DNA from: Pseudomonadales bacterium
GTDB lineage: Bacteria > Pseudomonadota > Gammaproteobacteria > Pseudomonadales > Azotimanducaceae
Direction: 5' to 3'
DNA: 40,751 nt
Assembly (NCBI GenBank): GCA_016779385.1
Contig: JADHNT010000012.1
Location: 1-40,751, forward strand
Part shown: positions 29,677 to 40,515 of the stretch, in pieces
How the letters are laid out: every line of letters starts with the position of its first letter
Position numbering within the stretch: position 1 is the first letter of the stretch
The notes under the pieces: model-generated
Seen by the model: the letters and a program-made list of their open reading frames with translations, nothing else
What the model was told of the DNA's origin: nothing
Database searches by the model: none
Position numbers and translations under genes: made by a program

Positions 29677-30927
29677 CTAGGCTCCTTTTTTCTGTGCATC
29701 AGCCTTCGGCGGCGTACGCGCCGAAAGCACCTGAATCAGCCGGTCTACTTCGTCTATGGTGTTGTAGTGCGCGAAGGACACGCGCACCACTCCACCCTCC
29801 CCCGCCAGCCCCAGGTGCTCAATCAGGCGTCGAGCATGGAAGTCCCCGTAGCGAACGGCCACCTGGGCGGCTTCCACGGCCTGGGCCACGGCGCCGGCGT
29901 CCCAGCCCGCAAGACGAAAGCTGATGATCGGCAGGCGATCCGCTGCCAGACCATCCGTGCTGCCAACGATGTCGACGTCCGGGCGACTGCGGAGATAGGC
30001 CAGGAGGCGCTCCGCCAAGCGCCCTTCGTGGGCGGCGATGGCCTCAAAAGCCGCATCGAGGGCGTCCGATCCCTCGACCCCCGGCGCGGCATGCTGACCC
30101 AGGGCCTCTAGGTAGGGAGTGATGGCAGCGGCCGCCGCCGCGAGCTCGTAATTGGGGTTGCCAGGCTCAAGCTTCTTCGGCACCGCGTCGATGAAGTGGT
30201 GATATTGCGGCTCCAGCGCTTCAAGGCGGGCGCGGCGCCCCCAAAGCACGCCCTGATGGGGGCCAAAGGTTTTATAGAGGGAGAAGGCGAGGTAATCGAT
30301 GGGCAGGCGGGCCACGTTGATCCGCCGGTGCGGCGCGTAGGCAACGGCATCCACCGCCAGCTGCGCCCCCGCCCCCTGAACCCGCTCGCCAATGGCCTCC
30401 AGAGGCATCACTTGCCCTAGGATGTTGGACGCCCAGGTAACGGCGACGAGGCGCGTTTTCGGCCCCAGAAGCGCGTCAAGATCCTCCAAGCGCGGCACCC
30501 GGGTCTGGGGATCAAGCGCCCAAAACCGGAAGGTCACGCCCCGCTCCGCCAGCACCTGCCAGGGGCCAATGTTCGACTCGTGATCAAACACCGTGAGGAT
30601 CACCTCATCGCCCGGGGCGAACTGCGGAGCCAGGGCCCGGGCCAGGAGCTGGAAACCCCCGGTGGTGGAAGGCGTGAGCACCACTTCCTCGGCTTCGGGC
30701 GCGCCGATCAGGCGTGCAAGGGCGGCGCGATGGGACGCCAAGGCGTCGGCAGCGGCCTGGGACCGGGGATAGGTACCGCCGGTTTGGACATTGGAATGGC
30801 GGAGATAGGCCGTCATCGCCTCTACCGAGGCCTCGAGAATTTGCGTGCCCCCGGCGTTATCAAAATAGGCCCAGCCATCGTCGAGGCCGCAAAAGGCATC
30901 ACGGGCAAAGGCAAGGGGAAAGGTCAT
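29677..30927 (-). CDS. Cysteine-desulfurase-like PLP enzyme (class V aminotransferase, VC1184 type) lacking catalytic Cys
   Basis: The 416-residue class V aminotransferase has YFDNAGGTQ near the start, AVDAVAYAPHR with the PLP-N1 Asp (D193) and the PLP Lys in FSLYKTFGPHQGVLWG (K219). The block VRYGDFHARRLIEHLG aligns with the VRTGHHCAxPL block of SufS-type enzymes, with His364 where the catalytic Cys should be. The only Cys I see is C13. It is thus unlikely to be a true cysteine desulfurase, although automated annotation may call it one. The ATG overlaps the ABC ATPase stop (ATGA) and rhodanese follows after 2 bases. Confidence 0.88.
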   Translation of the reverse strand: MTFPLAFARDAFCGLDDGWAYFDNAGGTQILEASVEAMTAYLRHSNVQTGGTYPRSQAAADALASHRAALARLIGAPEAEEVVLTPSTTGGFQLLARALAPQFAPGDEVILTVFDHESNIGPWQVLAERGVTFRFWALDPQTRVPRLEDLDALLGPKTRLVAVTWASNILGQVMPLEAIGERVQGAGAQLAVDAVAYAPHRRINVARLPIDYLAFSLYKTFGPHQGVLWGRRARLEALEPQYHHFIDAVPKKLEPGNPNYELAAAAAAITPYLEALGQHAAPGVEGSDALDAAFEAIAAHEGRLAERLLAYLRSRPDVDIVGSTDGLAADRLPIISFRLAGWDAGAVAQAVEAAQVAVRYGDFHARRLIEHLGLAGEGGVVRVSFAHYNTIDEVDRLIQVLSARTPPKADAQKKGA

Positions 30928-31646
30928 GGTTCGCTAGGCTCCTCTGGGGCAACGCCCGGGGACAGAAAGGCCCGTACCGCCGCCGGCGCTTCCGGGCCAA
31001 AAAAGCGTACTGCAGGTAGGGGCATGGTGAGCTGGCCCTCCCGAAGCAGCGCCACAGCATCGGCCCAGTGTTCGGCGAAGGCAAGGTCATGGGTCACGGT
31101 CAGCAAAGCCACACCGCGGGCTGTCAGTCCCCGAAGCACAGCGCCCAGCTCCGCAGTGCGCTCCGGGTCCAGCGCGGACGTCGGTTCATCAAAGAGGAGC
31201 ACCGCTGGCCTGAGCGCCAGGGCCCGGGCGATGGCGACCCGCTGCTGCTGCCCCCCGGAAAGGGCGCCAGGCATTTTACCGGCAAACGCATCAAGACCCA
31301 CCTGGGCGAGGGCATCAAGTGCTCGCTCCTCCGCTTCCCCCGCGCCCAAGCCCTGTGCTGCGCGCAGGGCTAAGGTGACGTTGCCGAGCGCATCAAGATG
31401 GGGGAAGAGGCGAAAATCTTGGAAAACGAGGCCCAGGCCTGCGGTGGGATCGGCAAGAGACAGCATGCCCCTATCCAAGGCCTCGAGACCCATAATGCAC
31501 CGCAGAAGCGATGACTTCCCGGCCCCGGAGGGGCCCAGGAGGCAAAGGTGCTCGCCCGGCGCGAGCTCAAGGGAAAGACCCGCAAAGAGCTCATCATCGC
31601 CGAAGGCTTTCCTGGCGCCCCGAAGGCTGAGCACCACGGCGCTCAC
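30924..31646 (-). CDS. Polar amino-acid ABC importer, ATP-binding protein
   Basis: The 240-residue ATPase has Walker A GPSGAGKSS (38-46), Q-loop Gln76 (VFQDFRLFPH), signature LSGGQQQR (129-136), Walker B VLLFDEPTSALD (149-160) and the H-loop His186 (TVTHD). It belongs to the glutamine/cystine-type importers. The stretch between Walker A and the Q-loop is roughly 20 residues shorter than in typical members, so part of the beta-subdomain seems trimmed. GTG start overlaps the permease stop (GTGA), and the stop overlaps the next ATG (ATGA). Confidence 0.93.
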   Translation of the reverse strand: MSAVVLSLRGARKAFGDDELFAGLSLELAPGEHLCLLGPSGAGKSSLLRCIMGLEALDRGMLSLADPTAGLGLVFQDFRLFPHLDALGNVTLALRAAQGLGAGEAEERALDALAQVGLDAFAGKMPGALSGGQQQRVAIARALALRPAVLLFDEPTSALDPERTAELGAVLRGLTARGVALLTVTHDLAFAEHWADAVALLREGQLTMPLPAVRFFGPEAPAAVRAFLSPGVAPEEPSEP

Positions 31647-32305
31647 GAGGGGCGGCCCAAACGCCGCTCGAGCCGACGCACCATGGCCACTAGGGGCAAG
31701 AGGATGAGCAAATAAAGCCCTGCCGCAGCGATGAGAGGCGTGGGGTTGGCCTCGAGGGCCTGAGCCTGGGTGGCCTGCTTCAATAGGTCCGGCATGGCAA
31801 CCACGGAGGCCAGGGCCGTGTCCTTCAGCACATTAATGCTATTTCCCGTCAGGGGCGGAATGACCAAGCGGAAGGCCTGGGGCAGCACGATCAGGCGCAG
31901 AATTTGCGGAAAGCTCAGCCCGAGCACCCGCCCCGCTTCGCTTTGCCCCTCGGGTACGGCTTCAATGCCGGCGCGCACGATCTCTGAAGTATAGGCGCTA
32001 GAAACCGCCGCCAGCGCCAGGGTTGCAGAGGCAAAGGCGCTGAGAGAAAGGCCCACAAAGGGCAGCGCGTAATAGACCAGAATGAGGAGCACCAGCACGG
32101 GCAAGGCCCGGAATACATCCACATAGGCCCGCACGAAGGCCCGCAGGGGCGCAGGGCCGTAGAGTCCGAGAAGCGCGAGGGCCAAGCCGCCTAGCCAGCC
32201 CAGCACGATGCTCAGGGCCCCCAGCTGAAGGGTCAGAAGGAGCCCCTCCCAGAGCAGGGGCCAGGCCCGCAGCAGCACCTCACCGTTAAAGAAGGTCTCA
32301 AGCAT
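31643..32305 (-). CDS. Polar amino-acid ABC importer, permease
   Basis: The 220-residue membrane protein has about five transmembrane helices and the HisM-type pattern RAYVDVFRALPVLVLLILVYYALP, SAYTSEIVRAGIEAVPEGQSEAGRVLGLS and the coupling-helix region FPQILRLIVLPQAFRLVIPPLTGNSINVLKDTALAS. There is one permease gene, so it should act as a homodimer. The gene starts 2 bases after the binding protein gene and overlaps the ATPase start by 4 bases. Confidence 0.94.
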   Translation of the reverse strand: MLETFFNGEVLLRAWPLLWEGLLLTLQLGALSIVLGWLGGLALALLGLYGPAPLRAFVRAYVDVFRALPVLVLLILVYYALPFVGLSLSAFASATLALAAVSSAYTSEIVRAGIEAVPEGQSEAGRVLGLSFPQILRLIVLPQAFRLVIPPLTGNSINVLKDTALASVVAMPDLLKQATQAQALEANPTPLIAAAGLYLLILLPLVAMVRRLERRLGRPS

Positions 32306-32307
32306 GG

Positions 32308-33105
32308 CTAGGGGGCTTGGGGACGCGGCAGGACCGTGACCGTACTGCTATCAGCAGCCGGCGCCTGCCCAAACCATTTCTCGTGAAGCGCGGCCAGGGT
32401 GCCATTGCGCTTCAGTTCTCCGAGCGCCGCATCTAGAGGCTCGAGTACGGCGCTGTCCTTCGCCAGCATGAAGGCGTAGCGCTCGCCGGTCTCGATGCGC
32501 TCGGCGATGCGCAGGAAGGGCTTGTCCTTGGCGTAGTACAACAGGGAGGGAATATCGGAGAGGTAGGCATCAATGCGACGGCTCTGCAGATCGAGCATGG
32601 CCGGCGCCAGGCCCTCGTAGCGCGCGAGGGCTCCGATGCCGTAGCGCTCCCGGGCCGCCGTTGCCCAGATATCTCCGGTGGAGCCCGTATCCACGCCCAC
32701 CCGCCGGCCCTTCAGATCTTCAAGGCTTTCCACGGGGCTGGACCTCAGCACCGTGAGGGACTGGTCGCTGTCGTAGAAGGGCTGGGTAAAGGCTACTTGG
32801 CCCAGGCGCTGAGGCGTCACGGAAATGGAAGACGCGGCCACATCGATGCGCCCAGACTGCACCGCGGCAAAAAGACCGTTAAAGGGAATGTTGCGAAGTT
32901 CAAGATCCCGGCCCAGGGCCTCCGCAAGGGCCCGGGCGAGATCGATCTCAAAACCCACGTATTGCCCACCCCGCGCCTGGAACTCCCAAGGCACGTTGCC
33001 AATGTTCGCCCCCACCACCAGGGGCTCCGCGCGAAGACTTTGGGCCGCGATCAAAACCCCGAGAAGAAACAGGGACCAAGCCCCGCGCCGAAAGGTCACG
33101 CTCAC
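32308..33105 (-). CDS. Polar amino-acid ABC importer, periplasmic binding protein
   Basis: The 265-residue protein has a Sec signal peptide (basic RR, then WSLFLLGVLIAAQSLRA, cleavage near residue 25). The mature part is a family 3 solute-binding protein: PWEFQARGGQYVGFEIDLARALAEALGR, VAASSISVTPQRLGQVAFTQPFYD and GRRVGVDTGSTGDIWA. The substrate is a polar amino acid; cystine, glutamine or similar cannot be separated by reading. Two GTG codons compete (33117 and 33105); I chose 33105, six bases after a GGAG within a purine-rich stretch. Uup lies 49 bases upstream. Confidence 0.93.
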   Translation of the reverse strand: MSVTFRRGAWSLFLLGVLIAAQSLRAEPLVVGANIGNVPWEFQARGGQYVGFEIDLARALAEALGRDLELRNIPFNGLFAAVQSGRIDVAASSISVTPQRLGQVAFTQPFYDSDQSLTVLRSSPVESLEDLKGRRVGVDTGSTGDIWATAARERYGIGALARYEGLAPAMLDLQSRRIDAYLSDIPSLLYYAKDKPFLRIAERIETGERYAFMLAKDSAVLEPLDAALGELKRNGTLAALHEKWFGQAPAADSSTVTVLPRPQAP

Positions 33106-33154
33106 CGTGTACTCCACTCCCCTTTTCCTAACATGAGCCTAGCACCAATTGGGC

Positions 33155-35080
33155 CTAGCCCTCCCCCGTAGCCAGTGCCTCGAGTTCCATCCAACGCTCG
33201 ATGCGCGCCTCGAGCGTCGCTTGAAGCTCGGCCAAGGCCCCCAGGGCAGCTTCCGTCTCCGCCCGGTCACGGGAGAAGAAATCGGGATCGCTCACGGCCG
33301 CCTGTCGCGCTTCGACCTCCCCCTCCAACCTTTCGATTTCTTCCGGTAGCGCCTCTAGCTCGCGCTTCAGCATATAGCTGAGCTTGGCCGGGGCTTTTGC
33401 CGGCGCCTGAGCTGCGGCCGGCCGCGGCGGCGCCACTGCAGGCGCGATGGCCTCTGCCGGGGCCTCGCTCGCGAAACCCGATTCCGCGACCCGGAGAGTA
33501 CGCCCCCGGCGCTTCCAGTCCCCGTAGCCGCCGACATACTCCTGCACGCCGCCCTCTTCAAAAACCAGAATGCTAGTGACGACGTTATCGAGGAAGACGC
33601 GATCGTGGCTCACGACGATGAGGGTGCCATCGAAGGCCAGAAGCTGCTCCTCAAGAACCTCAAGCATTTCCAGATCAAGATCGTTCGTGGGCTCATCGAG
33701 CACCAGGAGGTTATGGGGCTTGGTAAAGAGCTTGGCCAGGAGCACTCGGTTGACCTCACCCCCGGAAAGATGGCGGATCTCCGTGCGCGCGCGTTCCGGG
33801 GTAAAGAGAAAGCCCTGAAGGTAGCTGTAAATGTGGCGGTCGACCCCCCCGACGGTCACCGTGTCCCGGCCCTCGGCAACGTTAAAAGCGATGGACTGAT
33901 CCCAGCGGAGCCCCTCCCGGGTTTGATCAAAGTAGCCTACGGACAATTGCGTACCCCGGCGCACCGCGCCCCCTTCGGGCGTGAGGTCCCCTAGGAGAAT
34001 CCGTAAAAGCGTAGTTTTCCCGACGCCGTTGTTGCCCACCACGCCAATGCGATCACCGCGCAGTACTTCCAGGTGAACGCCCTCAAGCAGCGTTCGCCCG
34101 GCAAAGGCCTGGGCGAGGCCTTGAGCTTCCAGCACGCGCTTGCCGGAGGCCTCCCCCGAACTCAGGGCCACCTCCGCGCGCCCCTGGCGCTGAACCCGCT
34201 CAGCTCGGGTGCGTCGGAGGGCCTCCAGGGCACGAACCCGCCCCTCGTTCCGCGTGCGTCGGGCCTTGATACCCTGGCGAATCCAGGCTTCCTCCTGGGC
34301 TAAGCGCTTATCGAAGAGCGCCTCCGCCGCTGCCTCGGCTTCCAGCGCCTGCGCCTTCAGCCGAAGATAGTCCGCATAGCCTCCGGACCAGCTCTGCACC
34401 ACGCCACGATCGATTTCCACAATGCGCGTGGCGAGGCGCTCCAGAAAGGCGCGATCGTGCGTAATAAAGACCACGGTACCCGAGAACTCGAGGAGAACCC
34501 CCTCGAGCCAGGCGATGGTGGCCAGATCCAGATGGTTGGTGGGCTCGTCGAGGAGCAGAAGCTCGGGCTTGGTGACCAGGGCCCGGCCCAGGGCCACGCG
34601 CCGGCGCCAGCCTCCCGATAGCTCCTCCATGCGCGCCTGGCCCGGTAAGGACAGCTGGGAGAGCACCGCCTCCACCTGCTGCTCCGGCTGCCAACCTTCC
34701 ATCGCGTCGAGCTCAGCCTGAAGCGCTGCAAGCTTTTCGAGGCTCGCGTCATCCGACGCCTCGGCGCTCAAGGCCTCCAGCGCAGCCAACCGCTCAAACT
34801 GCGGCGCCAGCGCCTCCCGGAGATAGGCCCGCACCGTGAGCGCGCGCTCCTCCGGCAGCGCCTGCGGCAAGGTGCTGACCCTGAGCCCGGTGCGGGCTTG
34901 GACCGTTCCCCCATCGGGCACGACCTCCCCGCTCAGGATAGAGAGGAGCGTCGACTTGCCGGCCCCATTGCGCCCAATCAGGCAGACCCGCTCACCCAGC
35001 TCCAGAGCGAAGCTGGCGTCCTTGAGGATCGCGCGATCACCGAAGTGGATGGAAAGGGCGTCGCAGCGAAGAAGGCTCAA
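33155..35080 (-). CDS. uup: ABC-F family ATPase Uup
   Basis: The 641-residue protein has two ABC domains: Walker A 36-44 (GRNGAGKST) with signature LSGGW 154-158, and Walker A 349-357 (GNNGVGKTT) with signature LSGGE 438-442. A charged linker (240-310) and a C-terminal coiled-coil domain (about 565-640, after an Ala/Pro-rich hinge) mark it as Uup rather than EttA. ABC-F proteins act at the ribosome; Uup also affects DNA-related processes. There are no membrane segments. The TTG start overlaps the response regulator stop (TTGA). Its place behind a two-component system is unusual. Confidence 0.94.
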   Translation of the reverse strand: MSLLRCDALSIHFGDRAILKDASFALELGERVCLIGRNGAGKSTLLSILSGEVVPDGGTVQARTGLRVSTLPQALPEERALTVRAYLREALAPQFERLAALEALSAEASDDASLEKLAALQAELDAMEGWQPEQQVEAVLSQLSLPGQARMEELSGGWRRRVALGRALVTKPELLLLDEPTNHLDLATIAWLEGVLLEFSGTVVFITHDRAFLERLATRIVEIDRGVVQSWSGGYADYLRLKAQALEAEAAAEALFDKRLAQEEAWIRQGIKARRTRNEGRVRALEALRRTRAERVQRQGRAEVALSSGEASGKRVLEAQGLAQAFAGRTLLEGVHLEVLRGDRIGVVGNNGVGKTTLLRILLGDLTPEGGAVRRGTQLSVGYFDQTREGLRWDQSIAFNVAEGRDTVTVGGVDRHIYSYLQGFLFTPERARTEIRHLSGGEVNRVLLAKLFTKPHNLLVLDEPTNDLDLEMLEVLEEQLLAFDGTLIVVSHDRVFLDNVVTSILVFEEGGVQEYVGGYGDWKRRGRTLRVAESGFASEAPAEAIAPAVAPPRPAAAQAPAKAPAKLSYMLKRELEALPEEIERLEGEVEARQAAVSDPDFFSRDRAETEAALGALAELQATLEARIERWMELEALATGEG

Positions 35081-35769
35081 GAAGGGGATCCGCGCCGAAC
35101 GAGGGGGGCCCCGAAGCGATAGCCTTCGCCGCGCACTGCGACGATCAGCCGCGCCTCACCTAAACCTTCAAGCTTTTTCCGAAGCCGGCTGAGGGCCGCA
35201 GGTAAGCGGTTTGACGCCTTCGCCGGCTCGCTATCCCCAAAGATAGCCGCTAAAGATTCAACTGGAATTGGCCCGCTTCCGGACCTTAGGAACGCCAACG
35301 CGATCGCCGTTTCCGTCGCACTTAGGCGCACGGCTCGCCCCCTGGGCGAATGAAGCTGCTGAGCCGCTTCATCCAGGCTCCAGGAGGCCTCGCTGGTCCC
35401 TCCAGACCGGCGAGCTACGCTCCGAATAACCGCCTCAAGCTCCTTAAATTCCGCGGGTTTCACGAGGTAAGCATCGGCGCCCTCTCGCCAGCCAAGCAGC
35501 CGATCCCCAGGACCGCTTCGCGCGGTCAGCATAATAATCGCTAGCTCAGGCCGGTGCTCCCGCAGGGATGCCGCAATGGCCAGACCGTCTATTTCCGGAA
35601 GCCCGAGATCTAGAATAACCACCTGCGCTGAGGTGTCGAGAAGCGCAGGCAACACCCCCCGCCCATCGCTTTCGAAGACCACGGAAAAGCCTCGATGCTT
35701 GAGAAAAAAAACGAGATCTTCCCGCAGGGAATCGACGTCTTCGATCACGGCGCAGCGTAGCTCGTCCAC
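35077..35769 (-). CDS. OmpR/PhoB-family response regulator
   Basis: The 230-residue protein has a receiver domain with the acidic pair E10-D11, phospho-acceptor D54 (VVILDLGLPEIDG), T82 (MLTARSG) and K104 (YLVKP), and a C-terminal winged helix (about 145-222, ending RLIVAVRGEGYRFG). It is a DNA-binding transcription regulator. The GTG start is directly behind the kinase stop (TAAGTG) with GGAGGG about 10 bases upstream. It is the evident partner of the two adjacent kinases, and its stop overlaps uup. Confidence 0.93.
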   Translation of the reverse strand: MDELRCAVIEDVDSLREDLVFFLKHRGFSVVFESDGRGVLPALLDTSAQVVILDLGLPEIDGLAIAASLREHRPELAIIMLTARSGPGDRLLGWREGADAYLVKPAEFKELEAVIRSVARRSGGTSEASWSLDEAAQQLHSPRGRAVRLSATETAIALAFLRSGSGPIPVESLAAIFGDSEPAKASNRLPAALSRLRKKLEGLGEARLIVAVRGEGYRFGAPLVRRGSPS

Positions 35770-37716
35770 TTAAGCGTTTCCCTCCGGTAGCCACATCGTT
35801 AATTCAACGCCCGAAGGACGATTAGGCTCAAATTCTACCCGCCCTCCGTGGGCGATCACGATCTGGCGAACCAAAAATAGGCCCAGCCCAAGGCCTGCCT
35901 TACCTCCACCGCCCCCAAGGCGCTCGTACTTTTTAAAAGCTTGCTCTTGTTCCCGGCCACTGAGGGCAGCCCCCTCATTTTCCACCCGAAGCTCATGGCC
36001 CGCCCGGCCGCTATTGTAGGTTCGCTTAACGGCAACATTCACGATCGAGTCCTTCGGAGAATAACGAAGCGCGTTTTCGAAAATATTGAGCAGGGCTAGG
36101 CTGAGGAGCCTCCGATCCCCTTCGACGAAAATTTCCTCGCAAGCTTTCTGAACGCGGATCCTTGCGGCTTCCGACCTGGGGAGTAGCTCAAGCACTTCCT
36201 CGAACAGGTCAGTCAAATCCTGGCGCGAAAGCCGGGGCCGAAAGACGGGGTCGGCAGATGGCGCGTTGCTGCTTAACAACAACCTCAGGCGCTCCACGGA
36301 TTGTTCGAGGGTTTGCAATCGGGAGGCTTCCTCTGGCCCCAAGCCCCCATCCTCCTCGGCAAGCGCCTTAAGTTGAGCGCGCGCGTCGTCCACCTGCGCG
36401 AGGGGATGGCGAGCAGCGCCTACGAGTGCGCGGATCATCGATTCCCGCTCCCCAACGGCCAGCATGGTCTCCCGGCCGATGGCCTCGGCCGCTTCTACTT
36501 CGCGCCTTTTTTCCAAGGTTGCCAATTGGTACGCCCTGCCCCGACGGCTCGAGTTCGCGTTGACGAGCCACATAACGGAGAACTGGGAGATTTGGGCCAA
36601 AGCCGCCGTAACTTCCGAATACGAACTTACGACTAAAACTTGGTAGAAGTGGCAAAAAGTGGCGAGGAGGAAAAGCGTCAACGATAGGGCCTCGCCCCAC
36701 ACCCTTGTCCCAGGCTGCCAGCGCGTCCAGGTTTCGGCCACCAGGGCGGGTAAGGCGGCCAGGGTGTAAAGCTGCACCAGCGGAGCCACCTCCCGGTAGG
36801 CACCCCCCAAGGTGGCCAAAACGGCCCCCAGGCTGAGGGCTATCCCACCCAGCGCCAGGTAATGGAACCGGGGATAACGGCTTCGTGCCTCAAGAAACTT
36901 GCTGAAGAGCCACCAGTTTGCGCCAACTACCAGCAAACCCAGTACCGGCTGCGCCGAGTCCACAAGCTGCGGCGAATGTGGAAACAGAAGCGCTCCAAGG
37001 AGCCCGTCAACCGCCATCCAGTTGAGGATGTTGAGAAAGAGAAACGTCGAAAAGGTCGCAAAAATCCAGCGTCGAAAGATGAAAGCGAAGATGACGTTAG
37101 CGATCAAGAGGGCAAGCACGACCCCATAACGAAGCCCCAAAAGAAGATAGTCTTCGAAGGCGTGGCGCCGAAGGTCCCAAGGCGTCCAAAGCCGAAATAA
37201 CGCGTGCAACGCCCCTCGCGACTCGACAGAAACCAGGAACCGGTTATAACCCGGTTGAAGAAGAAGTCGAAAAACGCCGTGCCGGTAAACATGCGGCCGC
37301 TCGCCGAAGGGCCGCGTATCGCCGAGCACTCCCCTAAAGGCCCAGGGTCCGATCTCGCTTTTTTGGTAGACCTGAACGAGGTCAAGGTAGCTGGGGCGGA
37401 CCTCGAGGCCTCGGGGCCGAGGGTCCTGACCAGGCACGTAGAGCTCAAAAAACACCCAGGCCCGGCCCTGTTCATAGGCTAGGTCAAGATTGCCAGGCAC
37501 CCTCTCAAAGAGCCCCGCTTCAAGGGCTCGCTGCGCATCTTCAAAAGAGCTCCCAGCACTTTCGCTCCCCCAAAATTTCAGCTTCCCCCCACCAAGTTTA
37601 ATGAATGGCTCGTCCCCCACGACGAAAGCCGTGGACATTGCCGGGACTGCCGCCTCGGCCATCGCCGTTATTCCCGCGATCAGCAAGACACACAACGCGC
37701 CCAATCGAGCCATCAT
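35770..37716 (-). CDS. 7TMR-DISM sensor histidine kinase with intact N/G2 boxes and atypical H-box
   Basis: The 648-residue protein has a signal peptide (about 1-23), a periplasmic 7TMR-DISM domain (about 35-185), seven predicted helices (190-385), a coiled coil (395-430), a dimerisation region and an ATPase domain. The putative phospho-acceptor is H437 in ARHPLAQVDD, lacking the Glu/Asp that normally follows the His and the HExRTP pattern. The N-box NIFENALRYSP (544-554) and G2 GLGLGLFLVRQIV are good, but the G1 Asp appears as Asn (VENEG). The ATG overlaps the upstream kinase stop (ATGA). The ligand is unknown; members often sense carbohydrates or lipids. Confidence 0.9.
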   Translation of the reverse strand: MMARLGALCVLLIAGITAMAEAAVPAMSTAFVVGDEPFIKLGGGKLKFWGSESAGSSFEDAQRALEAGLFERVPGNLDLAYEQGRAWVFFELYVPGQDPRPRGLEVRPSYLDLVQVYQKSEIGPWAFRGVLGDTRPFGERPHVYRHGVFRLLLQPGYNRFLVSVESRGALHALFRLWTPWDLRRHAFEDYLLLGLRYGVVLALLIANVIFAFIFRRWIFATFSTFLFLNILNWMAVDGLLGALLFPHSPQLVDSAQPVLGLLVVGANWWLFSKFLEARSRYPRFHYLALGGIALSLGAVLATLGGAYREVAPLVQLYTLAALPALVAETWTRWQPGTRVWGEALSLTLFLLATFCHFYQVLVVSSYSEVTAALAQISQFSVMWLVNANSSRRGRAYQLATLEKRREVEAAEAIGRETMLAVGERESMIRALVGAARHPLAQVDDARAQLKALAEEDGGLGPEEASRLQTLEQSVERLRLLLSSNAPSADPVFRPRLSRQDLTDLFEEVLELLPRSEAARIRVQKACEEIFVEGDRRLLSLALLNIFENALRYSPKDSIVNVAVKRTYNSGRAGHELRVENEGAALSGREQEQAFKKYERLGGGGGKAGLGLGLFLVRQIVIAHGGRVEFEPNRPSGVELTMWLPEGNA

Positions 37717-39578
37717 TTCGGCACCTCGGGTAGGAAGATCGCCCATTCAAGAGTCCCCTCGGGCCAGCGAGAAAATACTTCTCGCCCACCCTCGAGGGAC
37801 CGCAGCACCGACGAGAAGAGCACCAGCCCGTCTAAACGTGCGGGCTGCTTCCGAGGCGCCCCAACGACTCCTCGCAAGGTTGCCCAAGGCTTCTCTTTGT
37901 CCGTCCCGGGCGCCACGCGCAAAGTAAGCCTTGGCACCTGATCCTCCTGGTCCAGCAAGGATAGGAATATGAGGGCCAGAACATCCTCTACCACCTGAGG
38001 GTCGCCCTGCACCGCGGGGGACGACCCAAGGGCCTCCAAGGTAACGCTATGCCTGAGCGTTTCGGGGAGGCGATCAAGCGCTCGGCGCACCACCTCGAAA
38101 AAGTCCGGCGTAATACCCTTGGCCGGAGAGGTCGGCGCCCGCTCCAAATCAATGGCCAGAGAGAACACAAGGCGCAGGCGATCCACCGCCGCCGCAAGGG
38201 TCCGTAAAGCTTGTTGACGCCTCTGCGCGACCGCGGCGCTGGCGTTCTCCAACAGTAAGGACAGGATTTCACGAGAAGAATTGATTCGGGCTACGGGAGT
38301 CCGAAGTTCATGGGCCAACAAGGCCAGGAGCTGTAGACGATCTGCAAGCGCCTTTTGCCGCCTTGCGGCCCCAGCTTGTTCCGCTGCCAGCCCTGCGCTG
38401 ATTGTGGCGCGGGTTTGAGCCATCTCCCCCATGCGGAGGGACAAAGCTGTGGTGAACGCCGCCAAGAACACAAAGTAAGGGCTGCCGGAGACAAAAAGAG
38501 GCGGAAGCGGAGTGTCGTACAGCCCCAGGTTCCTGAGCAGAATGGCGACGGTGGCCATGACGTAGGCGAAAAATGCCGCCGCAAGCGCCCGGGGCGCGGT
38601 CCCTGGGGTCCTTAGCAGTCGATAAAGAACTGCGGGTGACCCTAAAACGCCTAAAGAAGCGTAACCCTGGACCCAGGGCCCAAGCTTCGGATAGGCGCCG
38701 AAGGCGCCGAGGGCTGCCGCGGCGAGGCTTCCCCATACGCCTAAAAGACCGATTCGGTAAAGCCACCGGTGGTAGCGCGCCGCCTCGAAAAGCTCAATAA
38801 AAAATAGCCACATAGCAGCGGCATAGAGGGGCACCAGGATGCTACCCCCTGAAGCGATGAGGCCCTGCCGGTAAGACCATTGAAGGGTGGCTGCGACGAT
38901 CGCAAGGAAGAAGGCGCCGGACAGGCGATCTTTTTGATTAAGGAAGCGCAAGGCGCTCACGATGGAGGACGCTGCGGCAAAACCCAGAACTAGACCGAAG
39001 ATCCAAAAGCGCCACAGCGCAGCCTTCTCAAAAGCCCTCGGCTGCCAGAGGTCGGGACGCGCGGTTAAGCCCGACGCCGAGGCGAGGCGGAGGAAGACCT
39101 GGTGCTCTCCCGGCGAAAGTTGAAGGCGGAATAGGGTCCCCGAATCGGAAGCGATGGGGATAGATTGCTGAGCAACTCGCCCCCCTTTTATGGAACGCAG
39201 CATCCCATCAGGCAATCTATGGAAGACATCGACTTCGTCGATATAGGGTTCGGCGGCTCGTAACCAGCGCTCCTCTTGCAAACCCGGGGGCACGAGCAAA
39301 CTAAAGTGGAGCCAAACCGCGCCGTCTTGAAACCCAAACGCTAACCCTCCGGGGAGGCGCTGAAAGGCACCCACCGAAAAGGCTGCTTCGGCGTCAGCGA
39401 AGGTGGCCGCACCGGCAGAATCTTCCCAATAGCTAAGGGCCCCGTCGGCCAGGTAAAGACGATCCTGAGCCTCCACCACCGCTACGGCTTCGGCCTCTGT
39501 AAGGCTACTCACTAAAAGCAGCGCTAGGACGACAAGCCTTCGGGCGATCGTCTCTCTTTTGGGCGAATCCCTTCGCAT
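37713..39578 (-). CDS. 7TMR-DISM sensor histidine kinase with canonical H-box but degenerate ATPase domain
   Basis: The 621-residue protein has a signal peptide (cleavage near 30), a periplasmic 7TMR-DISM domain (about 38-185), seven predicted helices (190-385), a coiled coil and a DHp domain with the canonical HELRTP at 423-428 (H423). The region after 500 has the size of an ATPase domain but lacks the marks: no N-box Asn (ALIFLSLLDQED), no G1 DxG, and G2 replaced by RLDGLVLFSSVLRSLEGG. It is a paralogue of the next gene by layout. ATP binding is doubtful; it may be a phospho-acceptor for its neighbour. The frame is intact, so it is not an obvious pseudogene. Confidence 0.88.
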   Translation of the reverse strand: MRRDSPKRETIARRLVVLALLLVSSLTEAEAVAVVEAQDRLYLADGALSYWEDSAGAATFADAEAAFSVGAFQRLPGGLAFGFQDGAVWLHFSLLVPPGLQEERWLRAAEPYIDEVDVFHRLPDGMLRSIKGGRVAQQSIPIASDSGTLFRLQLSPGEHQVFLRLASASGLTARPDLWQPRAFEKAALWRFWIFGLVLGFAAASSIVSALRFLNQKDRLSGAFFLAIVAATLQWSYRQGLIASGGSILVPLYAAAMWLFFIELFEAARYHRWLYRIGLLGVWGSLAAAALGAFGAYPKLGPWVQGYASLGVLGSPAVLYRLLRTPGTAPRALAAAFFAYVMATVAILLRNLGLYDTPLPPLFVSGSPYFVFLAAFTTALSLRMGEMAQTRATISAGLAAEQAGAARRQKALADRLQLLALLAHELRTPVARINSSREILSLLLENASAAVAQRRQQALRTLAAAVDRLRLVFSLAIDLERAPTSPAKGITPDFFEVVRRALDRLPETLRHSVTLEALGSSPAVQGDPQVVEDVLALIFLSLLDQEDQVPRLTLRVAPGTDKEKPWATLRGVVGAPRKQPARLDGLVLFSSVLRSLEGGREVFSRWPEGTLEWAIFLPEVPK

Positions 39579-39715: not shown

Positions 39716-39753
39716 ACGCTTTGGCGTGTCCCTAACCCTGTATGGAGAGTGAT

Positions 39754-40515
39754 ATGAGCGAAGAACAAGCGGTCATCGTAGAGCGCCGGGGGCGCGTGAT
39801 GGTGATCACCCTGAACCGGCCCGACGCTATGAATGCCATCAATGGCGCCCTGTCCAATGGGCTCTGGAATGCCATCCAGGAACTGGATAGCGACGATAGC
39901 CTGGTGGCCGGCGTTATCACCGGTAGCGGCCGCGCCTTTTGCGCCGGCATGGATTTGAAAGCCTTTGCCCGGGGTGAGGACATCGGCCCCCTGAACAAGT
40001 TTGTCCGCAGCGGCGCGGAGAAGCCACTCATTGCCGCAGTTAATGGCTTTGCTCTCGCTGGCGGCTGCGAAATCATGCTCACCTGCGACCTCATCGTCGC
40101 GGCCAAGGGCGCCAAGATCGGCATTCGGGAAGTGAAGGTCGGCCTCTTCGCCGCCGCCGGCGGCGTGTTCCGCTTACCCGCTCGCGTCGGCTACGCCAAG
40201 GCCATGGAAATGGCCCTGACCGGGGAGCCCATCACGGCAGAGGACGCGATGGATGCGGGGATGCTTAGCGCCCTGACCGAGCCTGGCGAGGCCCTGGACG
40301 CCGCCGTCGCCCTGGCGGAGCGCATCGCTGAGAACGCCCCCCTAGCGGTCAAGGCCTCAAAGAGCCTCGTCCGTTCGGCGGCCATGGGCATTGAAGAAGA
40401 TAAGCTTTGGGAAATGCAGATTCCCTGGCAGCAGAAAGTCTTCACCTCTAATGATGCCAAGGAAGGGCCGAAGGCCTTTGCGGAGAAGCGCGCCCCGAAC
40501 TGGACCGGAACCTAA
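39754..40515 (+). CDS. Enoyl-CoA hydratase/isomerase family protein (crotonase)
   Basis: The 253-residue protein has the crotonase fold with oxyanion-hole blocks GSGRAFCAGMDLKAF and GFALAGGCEIMLTCD. Both catalytic glutamates of true hydratases are present at the right spacing: E106 (GGCE) and E126 (GIRE), 20 residues apart. The usual PGAGGTQRLPR block reads AAAGGVFRLPAR. It probably hydrates enoyl-CoA in fatty-acid or amino-acid degradation; the precise substrate is unknown. The start MSEEQ at 39754 has GGAGAG just upstream, favouring it over an ATG at 39742. A strong terminator follows. Confidence 0.92.
   Translation: MSEEQAVIVERRGRVMVITLNRPDAMNAINGALSNGLWNAIQELDSDDSLVAGVITGSGRAFCAGMDLKAFARGEDIGPLNKFVRSGAEKPLIAAVNGFALAGGCEIMLTCDLIVAAKGAKIGIREVKVGLFAAAGGVFRLPARVGYAKAMEMALTGEPITAEDAMDAGMLSALTEPGEALDAAVALAERIAENAPLAVKASKSLVRSAAMGIEEDKLWEMQIPWQQKVFTSNDAKEGPKAFAEKRAPNWTGT

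Follow-up and report, generated by a model that had tools for sequence, protein, structure and literature searches.

Histidine kinases are usually regarded as self-sufficient homodimers, and the locus described here raises the question of whether two defective kinases encoded side by side could make up one working enzyme between them. It lies in a stretch of 40,751 nucleotides, hereafter the window, from contig JADHNT010000012.1 of a Pseudomonadales bacterium of the family Azotimanducaceae. On the minus strand the window encodes two tandem 7TMR-DISM sensor kinases, which we call KinA (37713..39578, 621 residues) and KinB (35770..37716, 648 residues). Their genes overlap by four bases, ATGA (37713-37716), although an upstream ATG at 37746 offers an alternative start for KinB, and the GTG start of an OmpR-type response regulator (Response_reg and Trans_reg_C in Pfam; 35077..35769, minus strand), the presumed single output, follows immediately after the KinB stop. 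An earlier note had described this layout and suggested that the pair may be an obligate heteromer; its coordinates, strand, overlap and downstream regulator were all reproduced when we re-read the locus. We consider it probable that KinA, KinB and the regulator constitute a three-gene split two-component system in which the ATPase domain of KinB would phosphorylate His423 of KinA.

What has each kinase kept? In KinA the predicted phospho-acceptor, His423 (codon CAT, 38310..38312, minus strand, as are all window features below), was assigned from sequence and alignments and stands within HELRTP, in a HisKA domain (residues 414-481, 38136..38339) that Pfam detects at 27.2 bits against a cut-off of 26.9 (E = 3.9e-6). 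Residues 482-621 (37716..38135) form a degenerate ATPase region without the N-box Asn, G1 or G2: the N-box place reads LALIFLSLLDQED, neither DxG nor a glycine-rich G2 is present, and HATPase_c gave no Pfam match in KinA at E<=10. The earlier note had read the same combination of a perfect HELRTP box and missing N-box Asn, DxG and G2, and motifs and Pfam agree on it. Moreover, HELRT fits the phosphatase motif HE/DxxN/T, and with this motif and no HATPase_c match KinA answers by sequence to a bifunctional split kinase in the sense of PMC3591291, where 1556 of 42417 HisKA proteins lack HATPase and 711 of these carry the motif.

KinB presents the opposite case. Its HATPase_c domain (residues 533-645, 35782..36120) scores 55.2 bits against a cut-off of 26.4 (E = 1.2e-14), and both the N-box NIFENALRYSP, with Asn548 (AAC, 36073..36075), and the G2 box GLGLGLFLV are present, as had been claimed. 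HisKA, on the other hand, gave no Pfam match in KinB at E<=10, and the dimerisation and phospho-acceptor hairpin (about residues 418-491, 36244..36465, placed by gapless alignment around the H-box) is degenerate. That the KinB H-box is defective therefore stands, whereas its description as a His without an acidic neighbour does not: the His of ARHPLAQ is His437, which in the ungapped alignment pairs with the Thr of HELRTP, four residues past the acceptor position, and the acceptor position itself is occupied by Gly433 (GGC, 36418..36420). One could still imagine that KinB is a complete kinase using another His, such as His437 itself, and that KinA is a dead sensor. We regard this as highly improbable, since KinB from the related genome G218 has Gly at the place of His437 and Asp at the canonical one, and since the acceptor helix is better conserved in KinA than in KinB. 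For the first of these reasons, and because the surroundings align without gaps, we also rejected a mere shift of the canonical His.

The ATPase domain of KinB is not fully canonical, as its G1 box reads NEG rather than DxG. We do not take this to mean that KinB is dead, because the single full kinase found at this locus in another genome, G219, also reads NEG, as does KinB of G218; a motif scan found Asn in place of the G1 Asp in two of 26 other kinases. Nor does a frameshift or sequencing error account for the lost motifs. A scan of two regions showed no canonical motif in any other frame, and remnants at the ends are in frame, which led us to reject this explanation; a frameshift is thus unlikely. 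Thus neither protein is a canonical one-chain kinase with His box and N and G boxes, each lacking one half, and by sequence alone they pair an acceptor without a working ATPase (KinA) with an ATPase without an acceptor His (KinB), as in a split kinase.

Outside the kinase core the two proteins resemble each other as 7TMR-DISM receptors. The extracellular 7TMR-DISMED2 domain is above the Pfam cut-off in both (KinA residues 46-179, 39042..39443, E = 1.4e-20; KinB residues 45-178, 37183..37584, E = 1.3e-14). The seven-transmembrane (7TM) region is above it in KinB (residues 190-376, 36589..37149, E = 6.8e-11) and below it in KinA (residues 192-380, 38439..39005, 17.1 bits against a cut-off of 29). 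In both proteins 32 residues separate the end of the 7TM region from the H-box, an equal spacing that would be compatible with a mixed dimer, although an assembly of more subunits is just as possible.

Is the pairing peculiar to one genome? We compared the five available genomes of the genus, that of the window and four others labelled G218, G219, G220 and G221. A divergent ECH gene on one side and an ABC-F gene on the other mark the locus in four of the five. In G219 it holds a single kinase, in which the His box, the N-box and G2 are present and G1 is NEG, and the regulator comes next; this kinase matches HATPase_c and HisKA, the latter at 24.0 bits, below the cut-off of 26.9. In G218 a further kinase, KinX, is followed by KinA, which the contig end cuts shortly past the His box, and a second contig opens with KinB, the regulator and ABC-F, so that a three-kinase array spanning the contig break is likely. 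G220 likewise has KinX and then KinA, broken off inside the ATPase region, and a different contig ends within its regulator gene. Both copies of KinX keep HELRTP and have lost G1 and G2, the second N-box Asn being Gly or Arg, whereas KinB of G218 has its ATPase domain intact. Pfam divides the proteins accordingly across the genus, with HisKA as the sole match of the two in KinA and both KinX, and HATPase_c as the sole match in both KinB. The earlier note had proposed checking whether the defects are conserved, and the loss of His indeed recurs in the one other readable KinB, that of G218. Tandem orthologues with two canonical kinases, the case it had set against its own idea, were found neither among 206 genomes of the family nor among the five of the genus.

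Sequence identity to the G219 kinase follows the same division. With helix 1 of the dimerisation and histidine phosphotransfer domain taken as H-15 to H+25, identities in helix 1, helix 2 and the ATPase domain are 54, 50 and 21% for KinA of the window and 53, 60 and 31% for KinX of G218, as against 30, 30 and 44% for KinB of the window and 28, 46 and 40% for KinB of G218; the ATPase domains of the two KinB are 47% identical. Over the 29 residues around the His, identity is 59-76% among KinA and KinX and 59-72% between these and the single kinase, whereas KinB shares only 24-38% with any copy other than KinB. Such reciprocal conservation is what a division of labour would predict, with KinA and KinX retaining the donor role and KinB the catalytic one.

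The same data bear on a different explanation, namely that KinA is not the substrate of KinB but a regulated phosphatase, a docking partner for the regulator or the target of some other kinase, with KinB acting allosterically in the manner of DivL or RetS. Partner-modulating pseudokinases have been described, among them the ChrS pseudokinase and DivL (PMC9491836), and RetS acts on GacS (PMC5992135). The match of HELRT to the phosphatase motif (PMC3591291) suits such a role, and possible alternative donors exist: at E<=1e-5 the window genome holds four family matches, which are KinA, KinB and two kinases matching in the kinase core only. However, allostery alone leaves the reciprocity unexplained, in that KinB has kept its ATPase domain while its acceptor helix diverged, and we judge this explanation unlikely.

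Relatives outside the genus show what is usual for this kind of kinase. Within the same order we examined the 11 best outside matches and four more, which gave 15 distinct relatives of the 7TMR-DISM kind. All 15 keep the HExRTP box and 13 have every motif; the second N-box Asn is kept in 14 (Glu in L011:922-2910) and DxG also in 14 (absent from L009:658-2667), these two departures coming from other families of the order. The first N-box Asn is replaced by Tyr, Cys or Gln in four (L094, L095, L096 and L011). Only in the genus, then, did we see kinases that lack the His or all of the ATPase motifs, whereas variation in a single motif is not unique to it. A scan of genome contigs with KinB as the query gave two weak matches, both confined to the kinase core, and none of the 79 records from a plasmid search with KinB matched over 80% of the protein. 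For the neighbouring ABC-F protein, the best hits listed from the plasmid collection were gammaproteobacterial and reached 47% at most; the window genome yielded no 16S gene.

Several observations weigh against a split system. The junction of KinA and KinB in G218 is concealed by the contig break, no KinB is seen in G220, where two kinases precede the contig end, and G221 has neither a kinase match at E<=1 nor an ECH match at E<=1e-60. The readable copies of KinB number two (window and G218). The ATPase region of KinA is absent from the G218 contig and partial in G220, where it shows the remnants AENAG and HQGPG before the contig ends and may thus not be dead, and HisKA is matched weakly in KinA of both genomes (18.6 bits in G220 and 19.9 in G218, against the cut-off of 26.9). 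Partial loss of motifs also occurs in single kinases, L011 lacking the N-box Asn and L009 the DxG. Predicted single-chain structures of the cytoplasmic parts, made from a two-row alignment of the window sequences, reached a mean predicted local distance difference test score of 53 and 43 and are too poor to use. In the tree, as set out below, the G219 kinase falls among the paralogues. Finally, the kinases outpace their neighbours in divergence: between the window and G218, KinA is 44% and KinB 41% identical, as against 93% for ABC-F and 98% for ECH, with the regulator at 74% and the permease at 99%. Relaxed selection could partly explain this rapid divergence.

Taken further, that last point would make this a decaying locus, with duplicated kinases randomly losing their functions and only a coincidental complementarity between them, and the variation of the kinase set among species points the same way. 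The reading frames, however, are open (those at contig ends as far as they run), and the His is absent from KinB in both readable genomes. Between G218 and G220 the ratio of non-synonymous to synonymous substitutions (dN/dS) is 0.145 for KinA and 0.19 for KinX, and the 29 residues around the His are identical in KinX and in KinA. Within KinX the ratio is 0.11 in the linker and the dimerisation and phosphotransfer domain and 0.345 in the ATPase remnant, which is relaxed but constrained. Chance decay seems to us very unlikely.

When did the two lineages separate? KinA and KinB form separate clades in the tree, with support of 100/100 and 100/99, and a duplication confined to the window species was rejected by the approximately unbiased (AU) test (p = 4e-6); the KinA and KinB lineages are therefore older than the window species. 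The tree places the G219 single kinase among the paralogues, and a grouping of KinA, KinX and KinB without it was rejected (AU p = 0.004), which under that model speaks against duplication of one gene after the split from G219, although the pull of long branches may account for this result. The duplication may therefore predate that split, with subsequent loss in G219, a dating that the long branches limit.

Some further features of these loci may be recorded here. Both KinX (L065:1417-3285 and L067:1780-3648) are 11 residues shorter before the His box than every other copy, and between G218 and G220 the synonymous divergence of the KinX 7TM part is 1.66, as against 0.66-0.73 in the remaining gene. 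In these two genomes stretches of 77-79 bases that contain the His codons are common to the genes for KinA and KinX, at 78-82% DNA identity (L065:39-115 and 1943-2020; L067:391-469 and 2315-2391), which may reflect strong constraint or gene conversion and are a possible cause of the G218 contig break. In the window, the fast-diverging block occupies 35077-39578, between flanks at 30924-35080 and 39742-40515, and the regulator diverges less than the kinases. The gene for an amino-acid ABC transporter ATPase in G218 (L064:6144-6800) shows an apparent change of frame near its end relative to the window copy, possibly an assembly error. In another family of the order, two adjoining 7TMR-DISM relatives with open frames of 923 and 939 residues were seen (G503:C156:5823-10405).

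How might such a system work? We infer that full-length tandem 7TMR-DISM kinases partitioned their functions after duplication, KinA becoming the phospho-donor and, having retained HELRT, probably a phosphatase subunit too, and KinB becoming the catalytic, ATP-binding subunit. Within a heteromer the ATPase domain of KinB would phosphorylate His423 of KinA, and KinA would hand the phosphate to the OmpR-type regulator. With KinB supplying catalysis and KinA the His, output would need both subunits, and as each would contribute its own extracellular sensor the system may be gated by two signals. For the sister genomes the term "two-signal" is too narrow, given that they carry KinX as well. A tentative extension, which we think possible but rather doubtful, is that the receptor is modular: a single catalytic KinB would serve several donor sensors, KinA and KinX, all feeding one regulator, and species would gain or lose sensors. 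If so, the number of inputs could change without new enzymes, and the loci with one, two and probably three kinases would be snapshots of that process.

Several known systems resemble the proposed one. In the HK1-HK2-TcrA system the ATPase resides on one kinase and the acceptor on its partner, although, unlike KinA and KinB, these are separate-domain proteins without 7TMR-DISM sensors. There too, two kinases and one regulator (Rv0600c-Rv0601c-Rv0602c) are listed as one system (PMC8965865, PMC9274095). CheA3 and CheA4 of Rhodobacter sphaeroides divide ATP-binding and acceptor roles between two proteins, neither of which autophosphorylates alone (PMC3591291), a division that motifs predict for KinA and KinB; those, however, are chemotaxis CheA proteins without whole domains, whereas KinA and KinB are full-length transmembrane sensor kinases, each with a remnant of its lost half. 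Hik36-Hik43-Rre6 of Synechocystis has been termed a split histidine kinase, both parts interacting with one regulator in two-hybrid assays; unlike the tandem paralogues KinA and KinB, Hik36 and Hik43 are a CheA homologue split into two genomically distant genes (PMC7656254). ChrS and HrrS of Corynebacterium glutamicum are likewise paralogous kinases, which in native form heterodimerise and of which the ChrS pseudokinase lost its working ATPase domain; heterodimers were not seen with truncated ChrS (PMC9491836). Unlike KinA, however, that pseudokinase arose from a laboratory-evolved frameshift, and its own His is dispensable, the phosphate coming from HrrS (PMC9491836).

Among the matches listed in a search of the open-access literature, none described paralogous receptor kinases that stand in tandem and have suffered complementary losses. 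Split kinases are already known; what sets this locus apart is the reciprocal loss in full-length paralogous transmembrane receptors, together with relatives that carry one and probably three kinases. Because the paralogue pair is natural and a close relative retains a single full kinase in the corresponding place, the transition from a homodimer to an obligate heteromer becomes directly testable, and KinA and KinB offer natural parts for a two-input gate.

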